From an uncultured Clostridia bacterium (GTDB lineage Bacteria; Bacillota; Clostridia; RUG12999): a stretch of 34,738 bases of DNA. The stretch lies in contig CAMNSU010000016.1 in the NCBI GenBank assembly GCA_946555455.1, positions 1 to 34,738 on the forward strand. The letters run 5' to 3'. Below, in pieces: positions 20,320 to 34,738 of the stretch (the stretch's first letter is position 1; the number at the start of each line of letters is the position of its first letter). Below the pieces are notes generated by a model. It searched no databases and was not told the DNA's origin. It worked only from the letters and a program-made list of their open reading frames with translations. Position numbers and translations under genes: made by a program.

Positions 20320-21870
20320 TCACTTCCTTCCCTTTTTTTCCAGCTTTTTATGCACATATGTCTTCAGCATCCCGCTGCGTTCCAAAACAGTTTTCTTCTG
20401 ATATCCATTGAGTGTCAGCTGCCGCGAAAATGTTTCATTATCCACCAAATCCAACACGGCATTCATTGCTTTTGTGTCTCCCCGTGCAGCGCTTTGTGTC
20501 AATGCTGTCAGCGCATAACAAAACAGACTGTAATCTTCTCTTTCCGGCAGATAGGATAACAACCAATCTGTATCTTCTCCCCTGTTTTTCTTTCCTATCA
20601 AATAAACTGCCCACTCATCTGCCTGTTGTTTCAGCTGTTCCGGAGGCAGCGTTTCTTCGGTACGCCACTGCATAGGCGTTACGTTTTCCTGCAATAAGCC
20701 GCGCTGCACCATCTCCTGCCGAACACTTTCATAACAATCCTCCGGATAGCAGTCCTGCCGCAGCGCCAAACACGCTGCTACCGCTGCCGCTTCCCCGCTG
20801 CGCATGACATTCTTTTTCAGCCGTACCGGCGGCAATGCGTCATGTGATATATCCATGCCGATTCCTGCCAGCAGCAGCCCTTTTATTCCCTTTGCCACAA
20901 ACGCCCCATAAGGCACCTGCGCAGTCAGCACTTTATCGCGCAATCCGCGCAGCAAAAAATCGTTCACCAATTCCGACTCAAAAGCCGCATCATATAAATG
21001 TGTATCATAAGGTCCTGACATGGTGAAAACCGGCTGTGGTACGTCTTCTTCCCCAAACAGCATTTCACCTGTCATTTGCGTTTGTCCCATGCCGTGCAGT
21101 CCTTCCCGTTTTCCTATCACTGCGCCGCACAGCAGCATTCTATTCTGACTGTTTCTGCTATAAGCACCCTGCGCATCGCTTTCTGCAAATGCACACGTTA
21201 CAGCTGCCGAAACCTGCATCATATCGCTGTTATTGATAAATCCGTTGTCCCGATACACATGTTCCAATTCATTTGCCTCGTTCATCACCAGACAGACTGC
21301 CGAAAATGCCTGTGCCTGTCCGTCGCTCTCCCGCCCCATATAAACCGGCAATCCCGCCAGACGGCATATATTAGCTTCCGCCGTTGCATCAATGACCATT
21401 TTACAAGCAACATCCTGCATTCTGCCATTTTCCAGTATACGCAGCCCTTGGATAGCGTCCTCCTTTGTCCATACGCCGCACGCCATACTTTCATACCAAA
21501 TTGTTCCGCCCGCGTCTGCATAAGCGGCTTCATAAACCAACTTTTTAGCTTCCGCATGAATGCCTTCGCACCAGCCTTTTTTTTGGCTGCATATGCGGTC
21601 CGACAACTGAACGATTTCCTCATCCAACGCGCTGCATTGACCTTTCAAATGGTCGCCGTGGTAATATCCCATCACAATACCGGTACCCATACCGCCCGGA
21701 AATGTCCCCATTTCAACGCAAAGTACACACGCACCCATCCGCGCCGCCGTAATACCCGCAATGATACCCGCGGTTCCCGCGCCGCAAACGATAATATCAT
21801 AGGTTTGTGTAAATACCGCTTCGCACACCGTTTCCTGCTGTACACCATCCACTCGTTCCAACAGCTTCAT
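20320..21870 (-). CDS. FAD-dependent oxidoreductase (FAD_oxidored-like), cytoplasmic
   Basis: The 516 residues include an N-terminal Rossmann site GAGTAG (residues 30-35), Glu53 placed to bind the ADP ribose, and the GGMGT loop (59-63). A second FAD signature lies near the C-terminal side: SHDALPPVRLKKNVMRSGEA followed by AAVAACLAL. This matches the PF12831-type flavoproteins common in polysaccharide loci, whose substrates are mostly unknown. No signal peptide is present. The ATG overlaps the stop of the preceding small Rossmann-like gene (ATGA), so the two proteins are probably made together and may associate. It sits between genes for exported proteins, which argues for a role on the same substrate, perhaps oxidation of a sugar or linked group after import. 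That role is inference. Confidence 0.85.
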   Translation of the reverse strand: MKLLERVDGVQQETVCEAVFTQTYDIIVCGAGTAGIIAGITAARMGACVLCVEMGTFPGGMGTGIVMGYYHGDHLKGQCSALDEEIVQLSDRICSQKKGWCEGIHAEAKKLVYEAAYADAGGTIWYESMACGVWTKEDAIQGLRILENGRMQDVACKMVIDATAEANICRLAGLPVYMGRESDGQAQAFSAVCLVMNEANELEHVYRDNGFINNSDMMQVSAAVTCAFAESDAQGAYSRNSQNRMLLCGAVIGKREGLHGMGQTQMTGEMLFGEEDVPQPVFTMSGPYDTHLYDAAFESELVNDFLLRGLRDKVLTAQVPYGAFVAKGIKGLLLAGIGMDISHDALPPVRLKKNVMRSGEAAAVAACLALRQDCYPEDCYESVRQEMVQRGLLQENVTPMQWRTEETLPPEQLKQQADEWAVYLIGKKNRGEDTDWLLSYLPEREDYSLFCYALTALTQSAARGDTKAMNAVLDLVDNETFSRQLTLNGYQKKTVLERSGMLKTYVHKKLEKKGRK

Positions 21871-22589
21871 TTGGCACCTCCCGCTATCCGCAGCCCTGCT
21901 GCATATCCTTGCTCATAGCTTTCTATCAGGTTTTCACAGTTGCAAGACGGCAACGCCGTCTCCGTTTCCGGCTGCACACGCTGGTCAAACGCTAATCCCA
22001 TTAATATTAGCTTGGTCTCCCGCAGCTCCTTCTGTTCCAACAACTCTCTCAACCGCTGCCGCGCCTGCTGCATATTCTCTTCCTGTTCCAATGGAATACG
22101 CAGTACACTCTGACCCTCCCAATATGCTGGAAGAATCGAAAATGTCCCATAATCTCCTGCCTCCGGCGCATGTTCTACCAGACAATGAAATGCTTTTTGT
22201 AAAACGGTTCCCTGCGCTCTGGTATCCAGCACCTGTTTGCACAAAATATTTCTGGTACCGTCCCAATTCTGCACTGTCACCATAAATCCTTCTCTTTGCG
22301 GAACAATTTCTTTTACAAATGTTTGGTACAATATTTCCCATTTTTTCTCCTGCGCCCGCCGGTATATCGCCAGTGCCGCTTCTCCCAAGCTGACAATATT
22401 TCCACGGACAGGAAGCGTCTCTAAAAACGCTTTTCCTGCTTCCGTATGCCAGCTTACCGGCGCAAACCGAAATGCCGGAGAATAATCCTCCAGATAGACG
22501 GAGCTGCTAATGATAAGGTTTCTGCTGCTGTTTGCACTGCAGAATCCCACTGCTGTATAGGTACCGCCCAGCACCACTGTGTCAAACAT
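21867..22589 (-). CDS. Small Rossmann-like protein partnered with the FAD oxidoreductase
   Basis: This 240-residue cytoplasmic protein starts MFDTVVLGGTYTAVGFCSAN, a beta-alpha-beta opening like a flavoprotein but with GGTYTAVG in place of the classical GxGxxG. The C-terminus ENLIESYEQGYAAGLRIAG resembles the final FAD-contact helix of FAD_oxidored proteins. It therefore looks like a shortened, divergent relative of its neighbour with most of the substrate domain missing, or a non-catalytic subunit. GGGAGG lies seven bases before ATG 22589, and a longer in-frame start at 22646 would overlap the upstream gene without a ribosome site. The stop overlaps the oxidoreductase ATG by four bases. No named family was recognised. 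Cofactor binding is uncertain. Confidence 0.65.
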   Translation of the reverse strand: MFDTVVLGGTYTAVGFCSANSSRNLIISSSVYLEDYSPAFRFAPVSWHTEAGKAFLETLPVRGNIVSLGEAALAIYRRAQEKKWEILYQTFVKEIVPQREGFMVTVQNWDGTRNILCKQVLDTRAQGTVLQKAFHCLVEHAPEAGDYGTFSILPAYWEGQSVLRIPLEQEENMQQARQRLRELLEQKELRETKLILMGLAFDQRVQPETETALPSCNCENLIESYEQGYAAGLRIAGGAK

Positions 22590-22602
22590 TGTACCATCCT
22601 CC

Positions 22603-25548
22603 CTACTGTTCAAGCACTGCCGGAACACATACCGGCTGCATATCATCCATATTATTCCAAATCATGGCAAGCGCCCGCGTCGCACCCTGCGGCACGCGCA
22701 ATGCTTCTGTTTCCCCTGCGCCGTTCAAACTCAAGTCCCGGCTGACTATACCAGCCATTTCATTTCCGCAATATACTGCCAGTACCAGTACACCGCTGCT
22801 ACGCTGTGACTGCACCGTTATGGTTTTGCCTGCTTCCAGACTTGGTGGTCGTCCATTTTCATCCGTCTTAAATTCTGCTTCTTCGGTTTCTGCCACCGTC
22901 ACATGATACACTGTGTCATACTGTTTTCCATTTATCATAACGGAAATTTTTATTTGTGCGCTGCCAGCCTGTTTCGCATGAAATATGCCGTCTTCCACAG
23001 AAACTGTCTCCGGCGCGCTGCTTTGTGCCTGCTTTACAGCTGCTGTATGTAAAAATCCGCCTGTATCCCGCCAACTAATTTTCAGCGCTGCAATTTCACC
23101 TTTATACATACTGCGTCCTGGTCCGTCTGCCGTTTCTCCCGTCCGTACAAACAGCTGCCGCAGCGGCGCTCCTGTCTGCACATAGGGATACGTTTCCAAC
23201 AGTCCGATGTCTCTGCGGTTCCAAAGTTCTATACCCATTTCCTCCAGCACTGTATTCCCCTGCACTGTCAGTCGGCAACTGTCCGCTTCCTCCATAAAAT
23301 CAATCTGTGCCCAGCGGCTATGCGTATCAAATCCTAGCGACTGCCAGCTTTGCCAGTCAGTGATTGGCGGATCTATGCTGTTGATTTCCGGCTGTCCTTG
23401 TTCCTCCCAAAACAAATTTTCATCTGCCTGCGCAATTTTATCTACCGTCCATCTATCCTGAAATGTGTATAAACATCCGCCGCTTTGGAGCGCCGCATTT
23501 TTCCTGAAAACCAGTTGTCCGCAGCCATAGGCGCCATTTGAAGAATCATAAGTATCGTTATAAAAGAATATGCTTTTGCTGTCATTGTCCACAAACAAAT
23601 TATGCTGCACCGTGATACCTGTTCCTCGCGGATAAATCAATCCTCTTACCACCGCACCGCCCACTGCACGCATTTCCGAAATAATATTATCCTCCACCAA
23701 TACGCCGTCGGAATCCTCGTCCATATAGATGCCAAACACAAAGGTATTCTGCGGCAAAACAGTAATGGGGTCCACCGTGCAATCGTGAATCCAATTTCCA
23801 CGAATGATGTTGCCTGTATTCACACCCCATGTGGCAATCGCACCGCAATCCTGCGAATCCTGTACTACATCTGATATATCATTTGCTTCCACAACATTAT
23901 CCTTGGTCTTTTGAAACGACCGAAAATTCTCTTCCGTTACCAATATACCGCCATAAGTATTGCCAATGATACGGTTGCGCGGCATGCCTTTCAAATGGAT
24001 TCCATAGCGCGGAGAACCACTCACACGGTTATGCCGTATGACATTTTCCGCACTGTCGTAGATACGGATACCGCCTGCGTTTCCGTCACACCAGCCTACC
24101 CGCTCCACCAGATTGTTTTCAATGCGGTTGCCATAGGAAACCTTTTCCGCTATATTTGATTTGCCCATCACCGCAATACCATCGCTTCCGGTTTGTGAGA
24201 CTTTATTCCCAGTCACAATATTTTCATGTGATGCGCCTTCTATCGTAATGCCACGGTATCCTATATTTTCCACCTGACAAGCCGTCACAGCACAATTTGA
24301 AGCATTCAGCAGCCGGATACCGCGTCCCGGTGTATCCACGCCGGAAACTGCAATTCCTTCGATTATCACATTTTGTATAGGCGCTTCCTCCGTTCCCTCC
24401 AGCCGAAATCCATCCGCCTTTAAAGGAACGCTCACACCCTCTGTAAGCGCTGTGGTATCATAGGGATAATAATATAAATTTCCCGCCGCAGTATCCGCAT
24501 AAAATTCGCCGGGCGCATCTAAAAATTCCGGCGCCCCTTGCAAATAATACCGCGACCCTGCACCGATTTCATATGCCGCTTTGCGTACCAGTGTTACATG
24601 TCCCGAAGCCGCATCAAAATTCTCTATGGCAATTAATTGCGTAGACCAATTATAATGTCCGTTTTTTCCGCCGGGCCAGAGAAACACTTCCAAACCGCTT
24701 ATATTTTCCGGCTGCGCAAACTGTCCCGGCTCTGTATAAAACGCTTGATTTGGCTGTGCGCTGTCCGCCGCCGCACTATGCACATAACAGTTCTTCCCAT
24801 TCTGACGGTTGGGACTGCGCGCCGGAACTGCCAATTTCCCATTTTCATAGAGGGACTCCGGTTTTTCTCCCTGCTGCAGCGGTGCACGCCAAATATTGTT
24901 CCCTACGTTCTCCCAGCCTGTGACTGTGCGGGCAAAGGTAACTTGTACATTTTCCCCCTCCGCCGCGCGTATGCGAAGTTGATGGCCGTTTTTTCCGCTC
25001 TGTTGTGCACGAATTACACAAGATTGCTGCATTGTATAAGCCCCGCCGCGAAATATTATCTCCACATCGGTGTTTTCCAGCAATGACTGTGCCGCCTGAA
25101 GCGCTTTATCAAAACCTGCAAACGGCGCGGCTTCCGTACCAAAACCGTTTTCATCACTGCCCCCCGGCGCTATGAAAATGGTTTTGGTCGCATTGCCGCT
25201 GTCCCGACAGGAAACAACCGCTCTGTGCTGCGCTCCCTGCGCCGTCAGCACCAACGGATAATCCCCCTGCTGCAAAGCCGCTGTCACTTGAAAGGTTCCG
25301 TCCGCTGCTGCCTGTACGGTTCGCATATAAGCACAAGACTTTTTTAAATCGGTTTCGTCCAGCGCACTGTATTCCGGCTGCAATATCACAACACTGACCG
25401 CCGCGCCACCGGAAGAAATGCGCCCTTCTATTTGAACGCCGCCGTTTTTTTCCGTCCAATTCACCTGTTCAAAGGAAACTGCTGCGGCAGCAGGAAATGC
25501 TGCCAGCAGTACCGCCAGAACCACCAAAACTGCCGCTGCACGTTTCAT
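22603..25548 (-). CDS. Secreted right-handed beta-helix protein (probable carbohydrate-active enzyme)
   Basis: The 981-residue protein has a signal peptide (MKRAAAVLVVLAVLLAAFPA, cleavage after AAA). An Ig-like N-domain (~25-115) is followed by a right-handed beta-helix (~123-740) and a C-terminal beta region (~780-981). The helix shares its landmarks with the larger protein at 9722-14839: SLYENGKLAVPARSPN, WPGGKNGHYNW, YEIGAGSRYY, EFLDAPGEFYAD, LVTEENFRSF and VQDSQDCGAIATWG. Asp/Glu in EFLDAPGE and VQDSQD are conserved between the two and are candidates for catalysis; this is not established. The last ~60 residues (VLAVYCGNEM, MIWNNMDDMQPV) resemble the end of the neighbouring repeat protein. 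AAAGGAGG precedes the ATG, 16 bases after the upstream stop. Confidence 0.85.
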   Translation of the reverse strand: MKRAAAVLVVLAVLLAAFPAAAAVSFEQVNWTEKNGGVQIEGRISSGGAAVSVVILQPEYSALDETDLKKSCAYMRTVQAAADGTFQVTAALQQGDYPLVLTAQGAQHRAVVSCRDSGNATKTIFIAPGGSDENGFGTEAAPFAGFDKALQAAQSLLENTDVEIIFRGGAYTMQQSCVIRAQQSGKNGHQLRIRAAEGENVQVTFARTVTGWENVGNNIWRAPLQQGEKPESLYENGKLAVPARSPNRQNGKNCYVHSAAADSAQPNQAFYTEPGQFAQPENISGLEVFLWPGGKNGHYNWSTQLIAIENFDAASGHVTLVRKAAYEIGAGSRYYLQGAPEFLDAPGEFYADTAAGNLYYYPYDTTALTEGVSVPLKADGFRLEGTEEAPIQNVIIEGIAVSGVDTPGRGIRLLNASNCAVTACQVENIGYRGITIEGASHENIVTGNKVSQTGSDGIAVMGKSNIAEKVSYGNRIENNLVERVGWCDGNAGGIRIYDSAENVIRHNRVSGSPRYGIHLKGMPRNRIIGNTYGGILVTEENFRSFQKTKDNVVEANDISDVVQDSQDCGAIATWGVNTGNIIRGNWIHDCTVDPITVLPQNTFVFGIYMDEDSDGVLVEDNIISEMRAVGGAVVRGLIYPRGTGITVQHNLFVDNDSKSIFFYNDTYDSSNGAYGCGQLVFRKNAALQSGGCLYTFQDRWTVDKIAQADENLFWEEQGQPEINSIDPPITDWQSWQSLGFDTHSRWAQIDFMEEADSCRLTVQGNTVLEEMGIELWNRRDIGLLETYPYVQTGAPLRQLFVRTGETADGPGRSMYKGEIAALKISWRDTGGFLHTAAVKQAQSSAPETVSVEDGIFHAKQAGSAQIKISVMINGKQYDTVYHVTVAETEEAEFKTDENGRPPSLEAGKTITVQSQRSSGVLVLAVYCGNEMAGIVSRDLSLNGAGETEALRVPQGATRALAMIWNNMDDMQPVCVPAVLEQ

Positions 25549-25564
25549 AAAACGCCTCCTTTAT

Positions 25565-28500
25565 CTACTCGTCAATATCCTTGGGCAACGACAATGGTAT
25601 CATGGGAATCAATTCGTCCCAGACACACGCATTGTAAGTCAGCCCATCTTCCACTGTAATCGGTTCCATTTCAACCACGCTTTTTGTTTGCCCAAGCGGA
25701 ACCGTCGCCCGTTTATAATTTGCTTTTACCATTTCATTTCCTTTATACGCTGTAACGACAAGTACAAAGGTTGTATTATTTCCAAATGCACCGTTATTGT
25801 AAATCTCCGCTACCACTTTCATTTTCCCGCCGTCAAGCTGACTGACAGCGGTAATTTCCTGTCCCGACATATCTGTAAAATAAATTTCTGCCGGAGCCGC
25901 TGTACGGAGATGGTACACTGCTGTACTGAACCCATCCGCCGCTGTTACTACCAAAGTATCTCCCTGCACAAGCGCTCCCTCTGTGCGCTGCACATTGTTC
26001 TGCGGCGTTTGCGCATCATAAACGCTGTAGATAGCCGCGGTTGCCCCAGCCGGAATCCGAATATTGTTTCGGAAAGTATCCACCGTTGTACCCTTCAAAA
26101 TTCCGCTGATTGCAGTATCCTGCACACGGTATATTTCGGATGAAGCTGCACACTCGCCGGAAACCGTTTTAATTTTGATGTTGTCAACATAATATGGCGA
26201 TGGCGCTGCCGCTGTATAATCTGCACGTTTTCCATTATAAAAACGAATTGCAGTGAGTATATTGCTGTCCTTTTTGGCTCCCTGAAATTCTGCAGTTCCC
26301 ACCAATGTACCATCCAACCAAACAGTTGCGCTGTTGCGTTTGGTGCTGGCAAGCACTTTCAACGTATGCCAAGTCCCCCAGTCGTCTGTGCCAAATGCCT
26401 GATTTTGCCGCCCAACGGATGTACCGTTTCCAGGATAATGTGTAATGACAAAACCAGTGGTGGTCGCAACGTTGCAAACCGCTAATGACTGCGCCGAAGG
26501 TTCCGTCTCATTTTTACGTTCCACTACCAACTCTACCAATTTGATTTGATTGGCATTGGCATCGTCAACACGCTGTTTCACCAAAAAATCCATGGTGATT
26601 TCCACGTCTTCCGCTTGTCTAAGCGCAAACGTTGCCTGATTGGCAGCGGAATTGTTGCTGCCGCCGGAATAGAGCGCATAATCGTTAGGATTGGGAACTG
26701 TTGTTAAACCAGGGTCTGTCTCCCCACCCAACGGACGCTGCATTGCATGATATGTATCTGCATTCATTTTCCAGCCCGCCGGCGGGATTTTCCGGTCATT
26801 AAAATCCAAATAGGTTAAAATATCTGTTGTTAAAATATGGTATACTTTCCCACCCGGTTCTACTGTCAATGTATCGGTATAGAAAACGGTTCCGGTTGTT
26901 TTTTCCTGTCCATCACTGCTGTGGAGTGTCCCGCTGCCGCCTTCGGTATAGGTAAGGTTGCCCAAAAATGCCGCAACCTCTGTTTCCGGCGCTACGCCGC
27001 GAATCATCATCTCTGTCTGATTGACGTCATACACACCAGATTGTACCTGCGACGGCACCTCCGGTCTAGCGTCTACCGTGATAGTATAAATCGTGTCGCC
27101 CGGTGTCACCACCAGTTTATCCCCTGTCACAACTGCGCCGCCCGTCTTGGCATTACCGTCGCTGTCTGTCAAACTGCCGCTGCCGTTTTCCGTGTACGTG
27201 ATATTCCCTAGAAACGCCGTTATCCCTGTCCCGTACGGTACGCCCATAATAGTCTTTTCGCTCTGATTCACAGTATAAACAGAAGATTGTGCTATTGGTT
27301 TTGCATTCACCGTGATGGTATAAACCGTGTCGCCCGGCGCCGCCACCAGTTTATCCCCTGTCACGACCGTGCCGCTCGTTTTAGCGTTGCCGCTGCCGTC
27401 CGTCAGACTGCCGCTGCCATTTTCTGTGTACGTGATGTTTCCCAAAAATGCCGCCACCCCCGTCCCATATGGTACCCCTGTAATGGTATGACTACTTTGT
27501 ACTACAATATAGACAGTAGACTGCGCCAATGCCACATTAACAGGGGGCTGCGGGTCAACTGTAATGATGTAAACCATACCGCCGGGTGTTACCGTCAGTT
27601 TATCCCCTGTCACAACAGCACCGCTTGTTTTTACGTTGCCACCACTGTCTGTCAGGCTGCCGCTGCCGTTTTCTGTATACGTGATATTTCCCAAAAATGC
27701 ATTCACTGCTATATCAAACGGAACGCCGGTCACAGTTTTTGCTTCCTGGTCTACTGCATAAGTGGTAGACCGTGCCTGCGGCTGCGGATTTACTGTCATT
27801 GTATAGGTCACTCCACCCGGCGTCACCACCAGTTTATCCCCTGTCACAACTGCGCCGCCCGTCTTGGCATTACCATCGCTGTCTGTCAAACTGCCGCTGC
27901 CGTTTTCTGTATAGGTAATATTCGCGAGAAACGTATTTACCTCTGTTCCGTAAGGCACATTTTTTATACTTTTTTCTTCTTGATTTACTGTGTAAACAGT
28001 GGATTGCGCCTGTGCAATGACAGGCGTCCGCACAATTTGTACGGAATCAATCATAAAATTCACAGCAGCTGTGCTTTTCCCATAAAATTGAAGCTGCGTA
28101 ATATCCTGAAATGTATCATTCCAAAGAGATACCGTATCTGTATCAAATATATTTTGACCGTTTATGCGAATACTGGCGCTGTTGTTTTCAACATCTACAC
28201 AAATCACCGCCGTATGCCATGTCCGATAGGCAAGCGTCGGTCCCTTGTCATTCAGCGCTGTGCCTTTTGGTCCATAAATCGGTCGAAGATGGAAACCCTC
28301 CGCCGAACTGCTGCCGGTGCTTAAACCGACCGCATCTTTTGTTGTTCCGGAGGCAGTTCCCATTAGGGAAATCAGCCTTAAACCGCCTGCTGCCAGCGTT
28401 GAAGATTGTTCTTCTACCCGAAATTGATATTGCAGTGTAAACTTTCCGGTTAATTTTCCGGTATCCATTGTCACTTTCCCACCGCTAAGTGCTTTAGAAA

Positions 28501-29683
28501 GCAATACTCTGTCTGCGCCCGCATTTTCCGTGGCTTCCGTCACCGTATCATAATTTATTACCGTGCCGTCTGCCGGTCGCTCAATGAGTTTCCAGCCCGC
28601 GCCCACGGTTGTAGTGCTTTGCGGCGGACCATCAAACGGTTCAAAATATAGGCAGCTTTCTAGTTGCAGCCGATAAGAAGGACCATCCGGTTCCACCTTC
28701 AGCCAATCGCCGTTCTCCACTGCGCCGCTTGTCCGTTCCGTTGTTCCATCTGCTGAATATACCTTTGCTTCCGCCGCCCCCTCCGGCAGCGTTATATTAC
28801 TTAGGAACGCCGCAACCTCTGTTGCATCAGGAATGTTAGAAATCACATGTTCTGATATGGTATAGACATCCGAGGTCACTCCGCCCACATTGGTTTTGTT
28901 GCGGTAAACTCTGATATTGTCTAATAAAAACGGCTGTAAATGCGCATTGTTTGCATTACTGCTGTCCACTTGCGTACCATTTGCATGTGTTGCCTGAATT
29001 TGCAGCAATGGCTTTTTATTTACGTTACCATAAAAATTTTGATTATCCACAATCGTAACATTGTCAACCATTGCCGTCACTTTTCCATTTTCCATGTCCA
29101 GTTCCGCTTTGAAATGGTACCATTTTCGATATTCCAACGCTTTTCCGTTAAGCGTAACGCCGCCGCCCGTAACGTTTTTACCAGTCTCACTGTCGGCATA
29201 TAACGGTCGCAAATTGAACCCTGTATCCGTAAAGGTTCCCATTCCTAAGGTAAACACCGATGTTGTTCCGCTGAGAAAATCAAAAAATTTCACAGTTCCT
29301 GACGGCGACTTTTTTGTGGTATCATTAATATAGGCAGGTCTTCCTTCCATACGGAAATCGCCTTCAAAAATCACTATGCCGCCAATTGAGCCATCGACTG
29401 CACCCTCCACATCAGCCATTTTAAAAGATGCCTTGCGGTTGTCCTTTTTACCCGAAAGCAAAACACGGTCTTTTCCTGCGCCCTCTGCTACAGGCGTCTG
29501 GTCCACCGCTGTACCGTCCGCCGGTCTTTCCACATAGGTAAAATCGCCACCATCTTGCAGCACTGCCTGGGAGGTACTGTTAAAATCCTCCGTATACAGG
29601 TCGCTCCCACCGGCAAACACCGGCAGGAGACCTATCTGTGCTGCAAGCAGCGCCGCCGCCAATATTATCGACAATTTTTTCAC
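25565..29683 (-). CDS. Giant secreted LamG-like/repeat surface protein without obvious catalytic domain
   Basis: Translation starts at GTG 29683, eight bases after GGAGG. A signal peptide (KKLSIILAAALLAAQIGLLP, cleavage near VFA) begins the 1372 residues. Three LamG/concanavalin-like domains (~28-265, ~345-550, ~950-1165) each contain a YxxWH(T/F)-type strand and a DN(I/V)-type end. Between and around them are seven copies of an ~80-residue beta repeat with core VPYGTxVxAFLGNITYTENG and VVTGDKL; five of these are contiguous. A final domain (VTAYKGNEM, ACVWDELIPMIPL) resembles the C-terminus of the adjacent beta-helix protein. No glycosidase, lyase, esterase, SLH or sortase motif was found. 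A polysaccharide-binding or spacer role at the surface is the best guess. It directly follows the importer genes. Confidence 0.8.
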   Translation of the reverse strand: MKKLSIILAAALLAAQIGLLPVFAGGSDLYTEDFNSTSQAVLQDGGDFTYVERPADGTAVDQTPVAEGAGKDRVLLSGKKDNRKASFKMADVEGAVDGSIGGIVIFEGDFRMEGRPAYINDTTKKSPSGTVKFFDFLSGTTSVFTLGMGTFTDTGFNLRPLYADSETGKNVTGGGVTLNGKALEYRKWYHFKAELDMENGKVTAMVDNVTIVDNQNFYGNVNKKPLLQIQATHANGTQVDSSNANNAHLQPFLLDNIRVYRNKTNVGGVTSDVYTISEHVISNIPDATEVAAFLSNITLPEGAAEAKVYSADGTTERTSGAVENGDWLKVEPDGPSYRLQLESCLYFEPFDGPPQSTTTVGAGWKLIERPADGTVINYDTVTEATENAGADRVLLSKALSGGKVTMDTGKLTGKFTLQYQFRVEEQSSTLAAGGLRLISLMGTASGTTKDAVGLSTGSSSAEGFHLRPIYGPKGTALNDKGPTLAYRTWHTAVICVDVENNSASIRINGQNIFDTDTVSLWNDTFQDITQLQFYGKSTAAVNFMIDSVQIVRTPVIAQAQSTVYTVNQEEKSIKNVPYGTEVNTFLANITYTENGSGSLTDSDGNAKTGGAVVTGDKLVVTPGGVTYTMTVNPQPQARSTTYAVDQEAKTVTGVPFDIAVNAFLGNITYTENGSGSLTDSGGNVKTSGAVVTGDKLTVTPGGMVYIITVDPQPPVNVALAQSTVYIVVQSSHTITGVPYGTGVAAFLGNITYTENGSGSLTDGSGNAKTSGTVVTGDKLVAAPGDTVYTITVNAKPIAQSSVYTVNQSEKTIMGVPYGTGITAFLGNITYTENGSGSLTDSDGNAKTGGAVVTGDKLVVTPGDTIYTITVDARPEVPSQVQSGVYDVNQTEMMIRGVAPETEVAAFLGNLTYTEGGSGTLHSSDGQEKTTGTVFYTDTLTVEPGGKVYHILTTDILTYLDFNDRKIPPAGWKMNADTYHAMQRPLGGETDPGLTTVPNPNDYALYSGGSNNSAANQATFALRQAEDVEITMDFLVKQRVDDANANQIKLVELVVERKNETEPSAQSLAVCNVATTTGFVITHYPGNGTSVGRQNQAFGTDDWGTWHTLKVLASTKRNSATVWLDGTLVGTAEFQGAKKDSNILTAIRFYNGKRADYTAAAPSPYYVDNIKIKTVSGECAASSEIYRVQDTAISGILKGTTVDTFRNNIRIPAGATAAIYSVYDAQTPQNNVQRTEGALVQGDTLVVTAADGFSTAVYHLRTAAPAEIYFTDMSGQEITAVSQLDGGKMKVVAEIYNNGAFGNNTTFVLVVTAYKGNEMVKANYKRATVPLGQTKSVVEMEPITVEDGLTYNACVWDELIPMIPLSLPKDIDE
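26835..28010 (-). repeat. Tandem ~240-base coding repeats, five contiguous copies
   Basis: Five units encode the beta repeat beginning with a (Q/R)SxxY(x)VxQ motif and ending VTPGxxxYxITV. Four share a nearly constant segment read on the plus strand as AGTTTATCCCCTGTCAC, near 27114, 27355, 27594 and 27831. The fifth (plus-strand left end) is more diverged. Two non-adjacent units match over 85 bases (27105-27189 and 27822-27906) with a single difference, closer than either is to the units between them. Confidence 0.85.
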
Positions 29684-29703
29684 ATTTCACGCCTCCTTTG
29701 GAA

Positions 29704-29731
29704 GGCGGTACAAGCATTTGCCAGCACCGCC
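29704..29731 (-). promoter_or_regulatory. mRNA hairpin between the substrate-binding-protein gene and the LamG/repeat gene
   Basis: On the minus strand GGCGGT (29731-29726) pairs with ACCGCC (29709-29704) around a 16-base loop containing a small GCAAATGC stem. It lies 3' of the SBP gene and just before the AAAGGAGG of the next gene, with no T-run. Hairpins after binding-protein genes often stabilise the upstream message; that role here is inference. Confidence 0.4.
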
Positions 29732-29743
29732 CACCTTTCCGTG

Positions 29744-31183
29744 TTACTGTTTTGTCTGCCATTCATCAATTTGCCGTTGAATCTCGGCAATTACTTTTTC
29801 ACAGCCTGCTGTTTTTAGCTTCGCAAGCATTGCATCATAATGTTCGTCCGGATTTTCTGCACCCATCTTCACGAATTCATATTCTTTCACAACTGCTTCA
29901 CATTGGGAAATTTCATTTTTCACCTGTTCCGGATTAAAATTAAATCCCCACAGCGGTGAAAGTTTTGCACTGTCATTTAGCGCTATTGTCTGTTCCCAGG
30001 TATCCGTTTCCTGTCCTTCTTTATAATAAGCGTTGAACTGGTTCCCAAACATCCACGCTTCCATTTTATAGTTAGAATCCGCTGTCAGCTGAATTTGATT
30101 TTCGCTCATTTTAGTATAATGTTTATTTTCTATCCCAAACACCAACATATTATAAAGGTCTTTATCCGTATTAAACAATTCCAGCACTTTTATTGCCTTT
30201 TCAGGATGTTTGCTGGTACGGCTGATTGCACTGAGTGTCCGCGCGGTTGCCGATGTCTGTGTATATGGGTCGCAGGTCGGAATACTGGTGATTTCTTTTT
30301 TATACTTTTGCAGATTTTCCACATCTCCGCCCGGTTTCATCGTTCCCCAGAAAAATGCATACCGCAGTCCCAACAAACTGGCAGTATCGCTTTTTGCACC
30401 AACAACATCTTTGCGGATATATCCTTTTTGATACCAATCATACATCAGTGCAATGTGTTCTTTAAATTCCGGCAGTTCAAACCAATTTTGCACCTTAACT
30501 GCTCCTTTGGATGCATCCTTTGGAATAACAGCAAAACTAGTAGGATAAATCTGTTCATAATTCATTTCCACCGCACTATATTGTGGCTGATATGGATAAA
30601 GGTCCGGTTCTGTTTCTTTGATTTCCTTCAAAAATGGTTCTAAGCTTCTCAAATCTGTAATCTTGCTGGTATCAAAGTGATGCTTTTGCACTAACTCGCT
30701 GCTTGATAACAGGCAATACTGTGTCGGCAAAATCTGATAGTTCGGCACGGCGTAAATTTGTCCATCTACCGTGGTCGAATTCCATACATAATCCGGCATG
30801 GCTGTTTTCAGTCCTGGCGCATTTTCCTCAATCAGCTTATCCAATGAAATAAACGCACCATTGGATACGTTTGATAAAAACGGAAGCGACCAGTTTGCTG
30901 TGAAACAAATGTCAAATTCTTCTCCTGAAGAAACCACCAGATTCATTTTCTCGGCATAGGAACTTTTGTCAATGTTTTTCAGGTTCAGCCGTACACCGAT
31001 TTCCGGTTCCAGCCGCCGGTTCATTTCTGCAAGCACTTCCGGCATACCGCTTTGTGCGTCGCCGGGATAGTACCACAAAATTTCGTCCACCGTTTGTTCC
31101 GAAGCGTTTTGTCCGCCGCCGCAGCCACCCAAAAGTGAAAGCGTCAGCACCGCCGCTACTACTGTCCAGATTCTTTTTTTCAT
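29744..31183 (-). CDS. ABC transporter sugar-binding lipoprotein
   Basis: The 479-residue protein starts at ATG 31183, seven bases after GGAGG. A lipoprotein signal ends in LLGGC (Cys21) followed by GGG. The mature part follows the extracellular solute-binding pattern of the LplA/LipO type that works with LplB and YtcP permeases: SYAEKMNLVVSSGEEFDICF, an aromatic lid region, and a C-terminal helical segment (NPDEHYDAMLAKLKTAGCEK) typical of long oligosaccharide binders. It would capture polysaccharide fragments at the outer membrane face and pass them to the two permeases encoded just upstream. An earlier in-frame start at 31279 overlaps the permease gene and has no ribosome site. The ligand is unknown; context suggests a uronic-acid-containing oligosaccharide. 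Confidence 0.92.
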   Translation of the reverse strand: MKKRIWTVVAAVLTLSLLGGCGGGQNASEQTVDEILWYYPGDAQSGMPEVLAEMNRRLEPEIGVRLNLKNIDKSSYAEKMNLVVSSGEEFDICFTANWSLPFLSNVSNGAFISLDKLIEENAPGLKTAMPDYVWNSTTVDGQIYAVPNYQILPTQYCLLSSSELVQKHHFDTSKITDLRSLEPFLKEIKETEPDLYPYQPQYSAVEMNYEQIYPTSFAVIPKDASKGAVKVQNWFELPEFKEHIALMYDWYQKGYIRKDVVGAKSDTASLLGLRYAFFWGTMKPGGDVENLQKYKKEITSIPTCDPYTQTSATARTLSAISRTSKHPEKAIKVLELFNTDKDLYNMLVFGIENKHYTKMSENQIQLTADSNYKMEAWMFGNQFNAYYKEGQETDTWEQTIALNDSAKLSPLWGFNFNPEQVKNEISQCEAVVKEYEFVKMGAENPDEHYDAMLAKLKTAGCEKVIAEIQRQIDEWQTKQ

Positions 31184-31212
31184 GTTTCTTTCCTCCATTT
31201 CTGTTTTCGCCA

Positions 31213-32109
31213 TTATCCTTTTACTGCGCCAACTGTCAACCCCTTGGCAAAATATTTTTGAAAAAATGGAAATACACACAGCATCGGTCCTGCTGCCAGC
31301 ACCGCCATTGCCATACGAGCACTTTCATTCGGTAATTTGGACGGGTCAATATCGAGCGCCAGTGTATCCATATTTTGTGTAATCAACTGAATGTCTTTCA
31401 TCATTTTTTGCAGCAGATATTGAAGCGTCACTAAATTATCTTTGTTGATATAAAGAAGAGATGTCATCCAATCGTTCCAGCGTGTCAGCAGCCCCAACAG
31501 CGCCACTGTCGCAATCACAGGTCCTGAAATGGGAACAATGATTTGAAATAAAATTCTGTATTCTCCTGCACCATCTATTTTTGCCGATTCAATCAGTTCC
31601 TCCGGCTGCTTTTGGAAAAATGTTCTAAGCAGCACCACATGCCACGGACTCACCAAATGCGGCAGAATATATACCCAAAAAGAATTGTTCAAATGCAGAT
31701 ATTGCGTGATTAATATGTAGGTCGGCACTAAACCGCCGCTAAACAACATTGTGAAAAACAAATAAAATGTAACGCTGCGCCGTGCTACGAAATTTTTTCG
31801 TGCCAGCGGATAAGCCACTAAAATCATGACAATAACACTCAATGCCGTCCCCAAAAATGAGGATAAAATCGTAATAACATAAGAATTCAGCAGCTGTTTG
31901 GGATTACGTAAAATAAACTGGTATGCCGTTAGGTCAAAATGCTTTGGCATTAATTGATACCCATAGGTCATAACCTCCTGTTCCGATGTAAAAGAAATGG
32001 ATATCACCAGCCACAATGGAATAATACAGCAGAGAGACAATGCAAGCAAGATGATATTAACCAAAATGCTTTCCCGCTCCCGCCGCAGTTTTTTCCGTTT
32101 TTTCAGCAT
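31213..32109 (-). CDS. Carbohydrate ABC transporter permease, YtcP/LplC-like (CUT1)
   Basis: The 298-residue membrane protein shows six hydrophobic segments. The EAA cytoplasmic loop reads EELIESAKIDGAGEYRILFQ IIVPISGP, the site that docks the ATPase. The N-terminal TM is followed by SFTSEQEVMTYGYQLMP, and the end FFQKYFAKGLTVGAVKG is the standard finish of this group. The ATG at 32109 is six bases after AGGAGGTG. An alternative start seven codons upstream would put this ribosome site inside the gene. The stop is 29 bases before the binding-protein start. The importer has no ATPase gene in this window; CUT1 systems commonly share an MsmX-like ATPase encoded elsewhere. Confidence 0.93.
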   Translation of the reverse strand: MLKKRKKLRRERESILVNIILLALSLCCIIPLWLVISISFTSEQEVMTYGYQLMPKHFDLTAYQFILRNPKQLLNSYVITILSSFLGTALSVIVMILVAYPLARKNFVARRSVTFYLFFTMLFSGGLVPTYILITQYLHLNNSFWVYILPHLVSPWHVVLLRTFFQKQPEELIESAKIDGAGEYRILFQIIVPISGPVIATVALLGLLTRWNDWMTSLLYINKDNLVTLQYLLQKMMKDIQLITQNMDTLALDIDPSKLPNESARMAMAVLAAGPMLCVFPFFQKYFAKGLTVGAVKG

Positions 32110-32167
32110 ACTCCCCACCTCCTCTTTCATTTTTGCTGCCTTGCATGACAGTCACTCCTTTCTCCCA

Positions 32168-33127
32168 TTAAAAGAGCGCATTTTCCGGCTCGATTTTTTT
32201 AACAATTGTGTTAGTTATCAGCACAAGCACAAATCCGACCAATGACTGGAATAGTCCAACCGCCGAAGACATTCCCACATCGCCCATCTGCCGCAATGCG
32301 CGGAAAACATAGGTGTCAATTACGTCAGTTGTGGGATACAAGGCTCCGGAATCCATTGTCACCTGATAAAACAGTCCGAAATCCGCACGGAAAATTTTTC
32401 CGACTGCCAGAATACCTAAGATAGTAATTACCGGTACAAGCGCTGGCAGCGAAATATACCAAATTTGTTGCAAACGGTTTGCCCCATCAATTTCAGCCGC
32501 CTCATAGTATTCGCTGTTAATGCCCATCAACGCCGCATAATATACAACGCAATCCATACCAAAATGTTTCCAGATATTAACGACTATCAATATCCATGGC
32601 CACGGTTCCGGTTTTGTATACCACGAAACACCTTCCCTGCCGCATTTTTCTAAAATGCCATTGACAAATCCAAAGGACGGATTCAAAAATGCATACACAA
32701 CATATGCTACAATGACCATAGACAAAAAGTGCGGAAAAATCATGGTTGTCTGGAAGAATTTTACCCGCCAGCGTCGTTTTACTTCATAAAGCAGCAATGC
32801 CACAATCACCGCTGCTAAAATGCCGAGAAAAATGAAAAAGAAATTTAAGTATAATGTGTTCCATGTAATTCGTGCAGCGTCATTAGACTTAAAGAAAAAT
32901 TCAAAATTCTTTAATCCGACCCATTCACTGCCCAGAATCCCTTTGTCATACTTGTAATTTTTAAATGCTAGAATAATGCCGAACATCGGTAAATAGGAAA
33001 AGATAAATACCAGCAGAACCGCCGGTGCAGCCATGCTGAAATAGGATATATTATCCTGAATATGCCCGCGATTCCTGCTTTTCTTATTCTGCCGGCGTAT
33101 CGCTGGCACTGCAATCCCAGGCTTCAT
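32168..33127 (-). CDS. Carbohydrate ABC transporter permease, LplB-like (CUT1)
   Basis: This 319-residue protein is the first gene of the leftward operon. It has a basic N-terminus, a first membrane segment (PAVLLVFIFSYLPMFGIILA), the NYKYDKGILGSEWVGLKNFE loop and further membrane segments. The EAA loop is YYEAAEIDGANRLQQIWYIS LPALVP. The ending VGLFQSLVGFVLVLITN TIVKKIEPENALF is typical of LplB-type permeases. It pairs with the following YtcP-like protein to form the transmembrane channel of an oligosaccharide importer. The start ATG follows GGGGTGG by five bases, and a candidate promoter lies 35 bases upstream. The closest named relatives belong to systems importing complex, often uronic-acid-bearing, oligosaccharides; the present ligand is inferred from context. 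Confidence 0.93.
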   Translation of the reverse strand: MKPGIAVPAIRRQNKKSRNRGHIQDNISYFSMAAPAVLLVFIFSYLPMFGIILAFKNYKYDKGILGSEWVGLKNFEFFFKSNDAARITWNTLYLNFFFIFLGILAAVIVALLLYEVKRRWRVKFFQTTMIFPHFLSMVIVAYVVYAFLNPSFGFVNGILEKCGREGVSWYTKPEPWPWILIVVNIWKHFGMDCVVYYAALMGINSEYYEAAEIDGANRLQQIWYISLPALVPVITILGILAVGKIFRADFGLFYQVTMDSGALYPTTDVIDTYVFRALRQMGDVGMSSAVGLFQSLVGFVLVLITNTIVKKIEPENALF

Positions 33128-33161
33128 AAAACCACCCCATCTTTTTTTAGTTGATAGTATT

Positions 33162-33190
33162 ATTGTACCGTATCACCGCCATGACTGCAA
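33162..33190 (-). promoter_or_regulatory. Candidate promoter of the leftward 15-gene operon
   Basis: On the minus strand TTGCAG (33190-33185) is followed after 17 bases by TACAAT (33167-33162). Predicted initiation near 33155 gives a leader of about 28 bases to the permease ATG. The -10 differs from consensus at one base; the -35 is weak, as expected for a regulator-dependent promoter. It faces away from the matching element for the kinase gene. Confidence 0.55.
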
Positions 33191-33242: not shown

Positions 33243-33271
33243 TTGCACATAGGTCTGCTTTGTGATACAAT
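33243..33271 (+). promoter_or_regulatory. Candidate promoter of the sensor kinase gene
   Basis: TTGCAC (33243-33248), 17 bases, then TACAAT (33266-33271). The boxes nearly match those of the divergent operon promoter (TTGCAG, 17, TACAAT). Predicted initiation near 33278 falls in the loop of the palindrome at 33263-33295, giving a leader of about 140 bases. Confidence 0.5.
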
Positions 33272-33295
33272 AGTCACAAAGTGACTATTGTATCA
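33263..33295. promoter_or_regulatory. Perfect 33-base palindrome (15+3+15), candidate operator
   Basis: TGATACAATAGTCAC (33263-33277), loop AAA, and GTGACTATTGTATCA (33281-33295) are exact inverse complements. The left arm includes the TACAAT -10 box of the kinase promoter. No T-run follows on either strand, so it is not an intrinsic terminator. A bound dimeric regulator would cover the -10 and start site. Alternatively a transcript from further upstream would form a very stable hairpin. Confidence 0.7.
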
Positions 33296-33340
33296 TCGAA
33301 AGTGTCTCCGCCGCACCGACCATAAGAGTCAGCAACCGGC

Positions 33341-33367
33341 AGAGATGCACGAAACTGTATCATCTCT
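33341..33367 (+). promoter_or_regulatory. Leader inverted repeat before the kinase gene
   Basis: AGAGATG (33341-33347) and CATCTCT (33361-33367) form 7-base arms around a 13-base loop, about 35 bases before the AGGAGG of the kinase gene. It may fold in the leader RNA. The arms are short and the role is unknown. Confidence 0.3.
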
Positions 33368-33417
33368 AAAAAAGCAAAATCTGTCCAAGCCGTTTTCACG
33401 ATAGGAGGCAACTCACT

Positions 33418-34738
33418 ATGTTACAGGAATTATTAAGTTCTATGCGGTATATTCACCACTACAAATTCAATAGTGTGTTTTTCAAATATTTCCGTACCAT
33501 ATTTGCTGTTACACTATCTGCATTTCTGGGATTAGTATTATTACTTTCTTTTTATTATACTTCTTCCTATCGCGATGAGTTAGTACAGCAAAACGAAATG
33601 TCCGTTATACGCGCAAAAAAATCTTTTGATACGCTGCTATCCACTATGGTAGGCGCCTCCAATTATCTTTCTGCTGACAGATCTATTTCCGGCTTTCTCC
33701 TGTCTCCGCCAGATGCCAAATCGCCTGCTGAACAAGCGCGGTTCTTAATTGATGTACAACGCTTACTGGGTGCATTTACATTGACGGACAATTCCATTCA
33801 TTCTATCTATATCTATTCCCATTACAACCATCAGGTTCTATCCTCAGGAACACTGCTGGATTTAGAACGGTTTCAGGACCGTGAAGTGATAGAACATTAT
33901 TTGTACAGCGGTGAAACCACCTCCCTCTTATTCCCTCGCCGCATTCCGCCTGCCGGTTCCGATATGGAACCTGTGAACGCAATCACCTATATCCATCCCA
34001 TCAGTTCTCTGGGTGTTATTGTCATTAATTTTGATACCACACAGTTACCAGAAATGTTACAGTCCAAAAATGCCGCAGATGAGTCCAGTTTACTTTTTAT
34101 AACGGACCAAAACCAAGTTATTTATGCCACAGATAAATCCTGGTTTATGCAGCCGCTGGAGACAGTAGACAACGGAAGTGTATGGTGCCAACTGGAAAAA
34201 GGGAATACTGAAGCATTTCATTTTTCCGGTCGCTCTACCATTCTATCCAGTGCTGAATCCGACTTGCTGCACATCACACTTATATCCCTTCTGACAGATA
34301 CCAGTACCCGTTCCTATCAGTGGTTTTTTCCATTGACCATTATCGGCGCTCTACTTTTGAGTTTGGTATTAGCATGCACGATTTCTTTTTTGGTTGCTTC
34401 CAAGCTGTTTAAACCCATTGATTCCATTCTGCATGCAATCGAAAATCCGGAACAACTTGCACAAAGTCCTGAAAACGCACATGCTTCTGCGGAACTGCAA
34501 TTCATTTCCCAAAATATCTCCAAAAGCTTTCAAACGACCAAAGAAATGGAGAAAAAATTAGCACAGCGATTGCTGCTTTTGAAAAACGCCCAGTCGCTCG
34601 CCCTATATTCCCAAATTACACCGCATTTCTTGTTCAACACTTTGCAGACCATTAACCTTATTGCATTGGAATCATTCCACGGCGATAATCCTATTTCCGA
34701 AACCATCAGTTTGCTTGCTGATATGCTGCGCATCAGCT
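33418..34738 (+). CDS. YesM-family sensor histidine kinase, C-terminus cut by window edge
   Basis: Translation from ATG 33418 (nine bases after AGGAGG) is open for 440 codons to the right edge. A first membrane segment (~28-47, IFAVTLSAFLGLVLLLSFYY) leads to an extracytoplasmic sensor domain (~50-300, dCache-like by size and position). A second membrane segment follows (~305-327), then a HAMP-like linker and the phosphoacceptor box QITPHFLFNTL with His403. This is the His_kinase pattern of YesM/LytS-type proteins, with Thr replacing the usual Asn before Pro-His. The ATP-binding domain lies outside the window, as presumably does an AraC-type response regulator. Kinases of this type sense extracellular glycan fragments and switch on the adjacent CUT1 importer operon. 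It is divergent from that operon. Confidence 0.92.
   Translation, partial: MLQELLSSMRYIHHYKFNSVFFKYFRTIFAVTLSAFLGLVLLLSFYYTSSYRDELVQQNEMSVIRAKKSFDTLLSTMVGASNYLSADRSISGFLLSPPDAKSPAEQARFLIDVQRLLGAFTLTDNSIHSIYIYSHYNHQVLSSGTLLDLERFQDREVIEHYLYSGETTSLLFPRRIPPAGSDMEPVNAITYIHPISSLGVIVINFDTTQLPEMLQSKNAADESSLLFITDQNQVIYATDKSWFMQPLETVDNGSVWCQLEKGNTEAFHFSGRSTILSSAESDLLHITLISLLTDTSTRSYQWFFPLTIIGALLLSLVLACTISFLVASKLFKPIDSILHAIENPEQLAQSPENAHASAELQFISQNISKSFQTTKEMEKKLAQRLLLLKNAQSLALYSQITPHFLFNTLQTINLIALESFHGDNPISETISLLADMLRIS

Follow-up and report, generated by a model that had tools for sequence, protein, structure and literature searches.

A perfect palindrome at a Clostridia sensor-kinase promoter as the first hairpin of a dispersed, probably mobile repeat found at -10 boxes

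Small folded mobile repeats have already been described. YPAL/RU-2 of Yersinia, for instance, is a folded, non-coding repeat of 168 bp that contains inverted repeats and whose target duplications vary between 3 and 26 bp at targets with dyad symmetry (PMC2229807). The repeat reported here is likewise folded and non-coding, with inverted repeats inside and duplications of variable length, but it resides in another host, and the accessible account of YPAL/RU-2 describes no preference for -10 boxes (PMC2229807). Correia elements of Neisseria, one copy of which lies just downstream of the mtrCDE promoter, are similar in being short and mobile, with inverted ends, close to genes, and in bringing or touching promoters; however, they carry promoters of their own (PMC10969869, PMC2229807), whereas both the -35 and the -10 of the present repeat come from a host promoter that already exists in the empty site. 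BOX and RUP of pneumococcus are, like the present repeat, dispersed stem-loops, and BOX varies in module content; they are over-represented between convergent genes rather than at promoters, and RUP differs further in its TA targets and IS630-like ends (PMC3049150, PMC2229807). REP/REPIN are also folded hairpin repeats but are linked to the single-strand transposase RAYT (PMC3116915, PMC2817692), whereas our consensus is devoid of the GTAG/CGTC foot and the genus lacks PF01797. In the open-access literature we found no report of a repeat that targets the -10 box and could not match this preference to any described family, an absence that is weak evidence of novelty.

The window, that is, the whole stretch analyzed, comprises 34,738 nucleotides from an uncultured gut bacterium of the Clostridia. 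The features of interest lie near its 3' end:

33243 to 33248, plus strand: -35 hexamer TTGCAC of the host promoter, 17 nt 5' of TACAAT, as in the TTG placement of the family
33263 to 33362, plus strand: copy of a dispersed repeat (alignment; BLAST to near-full copies in its own genome, best E 5.7e-17)
33263 to 33277, plus strand: left arm of the palindrome, holding the -10 and 3 nt upstream of it (exact complementarity)
33266 to 33271, plus strand: -10 hexamer TACAAT within the left arm (sequence and consensus scan)
33278 to 33280, plus strand: 3-nt loop, with the predicted transcription start at about 33278, 7 nt past the -10
33281 to 33295, plus strand: right arm of the palindrome, an inverted copy of the -10 region (complementarity and comparison of arm extensions)
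33302 to 33350, plus strand: core hairpin (GTGTCTCCGCC ... GGCAGAG-AT-GCAC) with the two-base AT bulge of the family (alignment, covariation and folding)
33356 to 33362, plus strand: TGTATCA, complement of TGATACA and an inverted copy of the -10 flank on the 3' side (repeat list and alignment)
33418 to 34737, plus strand: histidine kinase gene (PF06580) with a Cache-like sensor, running off the contig

The 33-base palindrome at 33263-33295 is exact, with all 15 positions of its arms complementary around an AAA loop, and lies far above chance, as a sequence-only reading had claimed; a single weak further half-site was found in the window when 3 mismatches were allowed. That reading also holds in placing the palindrome over what is plausibly a sigma-70 promoter for the kinase (TTGCAC-17-TACAAT, with the -10 in the left arm), and a consensus promoter scan called 33244-33271, with the overlapping 16-nt spacing, 9 of 12 matches and a preceding TG. 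Its further statement that the palindrome is no terminator agrees with the lack of a T-run 3' of it (after 33295) and with a terminator scan that returned just a weak alternative stem at 33256-33283. The repeat makes up most of the 5' leader of the kinase gene, whose Cache-like sensor match is weak. Upstream of the palindrome, two BPD_transp_1 permeases and a DUF3502 protein are encoded divergently, within a carbohydrate-type locus (20320-33127) that also includes an FAD oxidoreductase and a right-handed beta-helix protein and adjoins the kinase. A separate promoter-like TTGCAG-17-TACAAT on the minus strand at 33160-33190 faces this transporter operon, and the minus-strand TACAAT of the palindrome is, read by eye, without a -35-like hexamer at 17 nt.

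That reading overlooked a longer repeat, which ends at 33362 and of which the palindrome is the first third. When the palindrome alone was searched against the 3.1-Mb source genome (G000), one full match was returned, together with recurring half-sites ATAYAATAGTCAC followed by the same downstream sequence. A search with 33255-33370 gave at least 28 matches, with near-full copies of about 100 nt at 75-78% identity, and a family consensus built from better copies gave at least 53; such abundance in the host genome had been named beforehand as the observation that would speak against a dedicated operator. Dozens of matches occur in each of the three genomes of the genus, which are G000 and the sister species G001 and G002, and the repeat was found by sequence in none of six genomes from other genera of the family. 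A scan of a GTDB contig collection matched two named MAGs only, JAAWTG01 and CATIYX01, which we take to be G002 and G001, respectively. The palindrome is almost certainly the 5' hairpin of a dispersed mobile repeat. MAG contigs break at the repeat, so that copy numbers in these draft genomes are underestimated; in G001, the ends of contigs C251, C70, C81, C214, C291 and C308 fall inside or beside it. No exact core was found in viral contigs and no match in a plasmid search, and carriage by phage or plasmid was set aside on these grounds. At gathering score, Rfam returned no element match for 12 element loci and the window, the window region giving a chance-level match only; one repeat copy (L014:1242-1437) lies near a 6S RNA gene (RF00013).

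The same dispersal bears on the proposal that some unseen repressor of the sensor kinase uses the palindrome as its operator. A long perfect dyad across a -10 is what such a site would look like, but the family is scattered before many unrelated genes, and its arms differ between copies (GTCAC, TACGC, GTCGC and GTCGT, each with its own complement) where a regulon would share one site. Since arm sequence varies while complementarity is kept, a fold is to be expected rather than the operator of one protein, and we regard the operator as scarcely credible. The suggestion of an RNA hairpin made from the kinase promoter also appears unlikely, because the predicted start falls in the loop and would leave the left arm untranscribed.

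The complete form of the repeat measures about 120-130 nt, within a family range of 100-130 nt. It starts with D (ATGGTATAATA), the -10 region of the unit, followed by a short arm, loop and arm, an inverted D (TATTATA) and an A-rich spacer; the core hairpin, GAAA, an inverted D (TTATACCA), a small hairpin and a final D complete it. Terminal inverted repeats TGGTATAAT ... ATTATACCA close the unit, which is short, non-coding and multicopy, as expected of a MITE. Cores of two types are frequent in the genus, GTGC-CTCCGCC...GGCGGAG-AT-GCAC and GCGCCGCCGAATTG...CGGCGATGCGC. The window repeat, of about 100 nt, is one diverged copy (75-78% to others) without the 3' hairpin, which was lost or never present, and without the second -10 copy. 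Extended variants L017, L022 and L025 (G000 C101, C65 and C120) have one more module, GATATAGGAGGTTCC..GTCGGGATACGAC..GGAACTGTCCTC..GAGGACA, which follows the core and precedes the last hairpin. Another dispersed repeat, longer than this one (AATATTTTCCAAGAAGGGATTCTCTCCGGC..., with GTATGCAATCTTCGGCACGTGTCCGAAGATTGCAT hairpins as well), often lies directly 3' of the final D, as at L157:8972-9150 (G000 C6) and many other loci, and is present in numerous copies in G001 and G002 too.

Folded as a single strand, 33263-33362 reaches -38.4 kcal/mol (z = -7.8 against shuffles). Across 27 copies, the 45 pairs of four helices are paired in 95.6% of cells, compared with 20-47% in slid-partner controls, and two-sided changes affect 24 of the 45 pairs where shuffles predict 13.2, although part of this signal comes from a few subfamilies that many copies have inherited, so that the cells are not independent. 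Helix 1, the palindrome, has two-sided changes in 41 cells and a single wobble change.

Placement was assessed in 59 distinct copies with left host sequence by the distance of a TTG from the first TATAAT of the unit. A spacer of 16-18 nt was found in 40 of these (exactly 17 nt in 26), the other eleven 3-nt bins holding 0-9 copies with a mean of 3.6, and 19 copies were without TTG at this spacing. The window copy fits with its TTGCAC-17-TACAAT. Downstream, 37 of 47 copies are followed within 300 nt by the start of an ORF that is on the same strand and has a Shine-Dalgarno-like motif, compared with 17 of 47 in the mirrored upstream control. Together, TTG spacing and the excess of downstream ORFs locate the element between the -10 and the gene, and the repeat is very probably placed at promoter -10 boxes. 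The ORF excess would also suit a repeat that is now mainly a cis-acting RNA leader (an attenuator, stabilizer or processing site) selected at promoters, as would the wobble tolerated by the core stem, where helix 2 has ten one-sided changes. However, the copies precede unrelated genes and are polymorphic between sister species, the first hairpin spans the predicted start and so lies outside the RNA, and the near absence of wobble pairs from helix 1 hints that this hairpin matters as DNA. A role mainly as RNA leader is, in our judgment, distinctly unlikely.

Mobility is indicated by a comparison of G000 with G002, which are 94-96% identical across long stretches. Five filled loci (G000 C6:55016, L047, L050, L054 and L055) have an uninterrupted promoter in a sister species. 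The site filled at G000 C6:55016-55145 reads without interruption at G002 C33:18328-18346 (...TTGAAAAGAATATGTTTTCATGGTATAATAGTCGCAAATAAG...); L047, L050, L054 and L055 are empty in G002, and L055 is empty in G001 as well, a hint of polarity. The empty sites already have a -35 plus a -10 or a near match (TATACT at L047 in G002), and in the filled ones the promoter is split directly at its -10, with direct repeats that include TATAAT on either side. We consider the empty sites to be the pre-insertion state, which is not formally proven, as deletion between direct repeats could yield some of them. The comparisons at L066, and at C6:51172 with G001, gave degenerate or unrelated leaders and were left out of this count. 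For the window, neither the kinase, which has no close relative in G001 and G002, nor its flanks have a counterpart in these two genomes, and we infer the insertion there from the family.

The direct repeats may be long: L055 has a 17-nt D on both sides (GCAGATATAGTATAATA), L050 one of 19 nt (GATATAATAGTCACATGAG), and C6:51172, filled in both genomes, a repeat of 18 nt (ATGGTATAATAGTCATAT). In 25 complete non-tandem copies, exact direct repeats cover 1-18 nt (median 10), and in 21 of these, 7-18 nt around TATAATA; set beside the fixed-length target duplication of a MITE, their length varies and the origin of their bases is partly ambiguous. L054 and L145 show that the -10 copies on the two sides may differ, which leaves a clean target duplication unproven. 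The flanks could be read in another way, in which there is no transposition but homologous or site-specific (Campbell-like) recombination of a tandem unit between copies of the -10-containing D, the flanking D being the unit ends. Tandem arrays with a common D (L077, L079, L073 and L064), unequal unit numbers in one pair of orthologous loci (L073 in G002 vs. C40 in G000), different cores at the same site (L046/L146) and a flanking D that is not always host-like (L054) all speak for such recombination. On the other hand, bases specific to the host locus are duplicated on both sides at L055, L050 and C6:51172, and some copies contain an inverted host flank, which a simple crossover at 7-10 common bases does not give. 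We consider recombination of this kind unlikely, though far from negligible.

The palindromes themselves seem to incorporate host sequence. Perfect first-hairpin arms of at least 12 bp occur in most of the 59 copies, and in five, the window included, they reach at least 3 nt into the host upstream of the -10. The longest measure 22 bp (L112, 10 nt of host) and 20 bp (L113, 9 nt of host), followed by arms of 17 and 16 bp and the 15 bp of the window; among 59 copies, chance would not be expected to give 9-10 matched host bases. In the orthologues L046/L146, the right arm fits host GCATAAT in G000 and not in G002, and the two differ in their loops, TTT and AAA. At L059/L145, the left flank in G002 is ATTC and agrees with the right arm, where G000 has ATGG. 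The 3' ends of L055 and L056 hold about 15 nt of the upstream flank as an inverted copy. The simplest reading of these alignments is that arms may be kept perfect by templated arm-to-arm copying, which we take to be quasi-palindrome correction. Such copying would explain a perfect palindrome in the otherwise decayed window copy, where the right arm has a G to pair with the unusual C of TACAAT.

Taken as a whole, the palindrome is probably the 5' hairpin of a miniature mobile element that is non-autonomous and inserts at -10 boxes. The mechanism could involve a few steps. First, the element would move as, or be recognized as, a folded single strand with bulged hairpins. Second, it could land in the melted -10 region or at a target that pairs with its inverted -10 ends. 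Finally, palindromes would be kept perfect after insertion by copying between arms. With the -35 and -10 intact upstream, the host gene would still be transcribed and would gain a structured 5' leader, and promoters may tolerate the element for this reason. The window kinase promoter would then have an old, decayed copy whose 5' palindrome is still perfect. We offer this combination of folded strand, melted promoter and arm copying tentatively, as possible rather than probable.

No transposase has so far been linked to the element, and no autonomous copy was seen among the element loci examined. The Y1/RAYT transposase family PF01797 is absent from G000, G001 and G002 and present in four other genomes of the family; mobilization by RAYT was rejected given its absence from the genus. 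Another mover to consider is a host reverse transcriptase, which could copy an RNA made from the host promoter, with ends complementary to the -10 region, into melted promoters in a SINE-like manner. The complement of the -10 region does occur at both ends of the predicted transcript, and all three genomes of the genus have reverse transcriptase genes. However, the carriers G007 (rated 100% complete) and G015 have no RVT_1 match, which excludes reverse transcriptase as a universal mover, whereas non-carriers such as G011 have one, and a SINE-like origin is very unlikely.

The layout extends further than the sequence. An inverted-D/hairpin/D motif was found in 10 of 291 genomes of the class compared with 2 of 291 in a backward control, and G007 (same family), G015, G035, G195 and G235 have an equal layout with different cores, those of G195 and G235 resembling the second core of the source genus. 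Copies in these five genomes again show the two-base AT bulge near the stem base, most have, read by eye, a TTG about 17 nt 5' of TATAAT, and folding of L232 and L230 supported the three-hairpin layout. G241 and G184 look like chance matches. A stricter phylum-wide pattern gave clear copies in the source genome only, with just single AT-rich, chance-like matches outside the genus. It is possible, though we hold it with reserve, that these repeats form a Clostridia element class that targets the melted -10 of active promoters (the open complex), inserts as a folded strand and copies its palindromes inverted from the target promoter, the layout being kept while cores are exchanged between lineages.

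In summary, target choice and palindrome upkeep can be tested directly, given the five pairs of empty and filled sites and a helix 1 with hardly any one-sided changes. If insertion needs open complexes, the elements would serve as a natural archive of the promoters that fire and would offer a route by which many genes gain a common structured leader.
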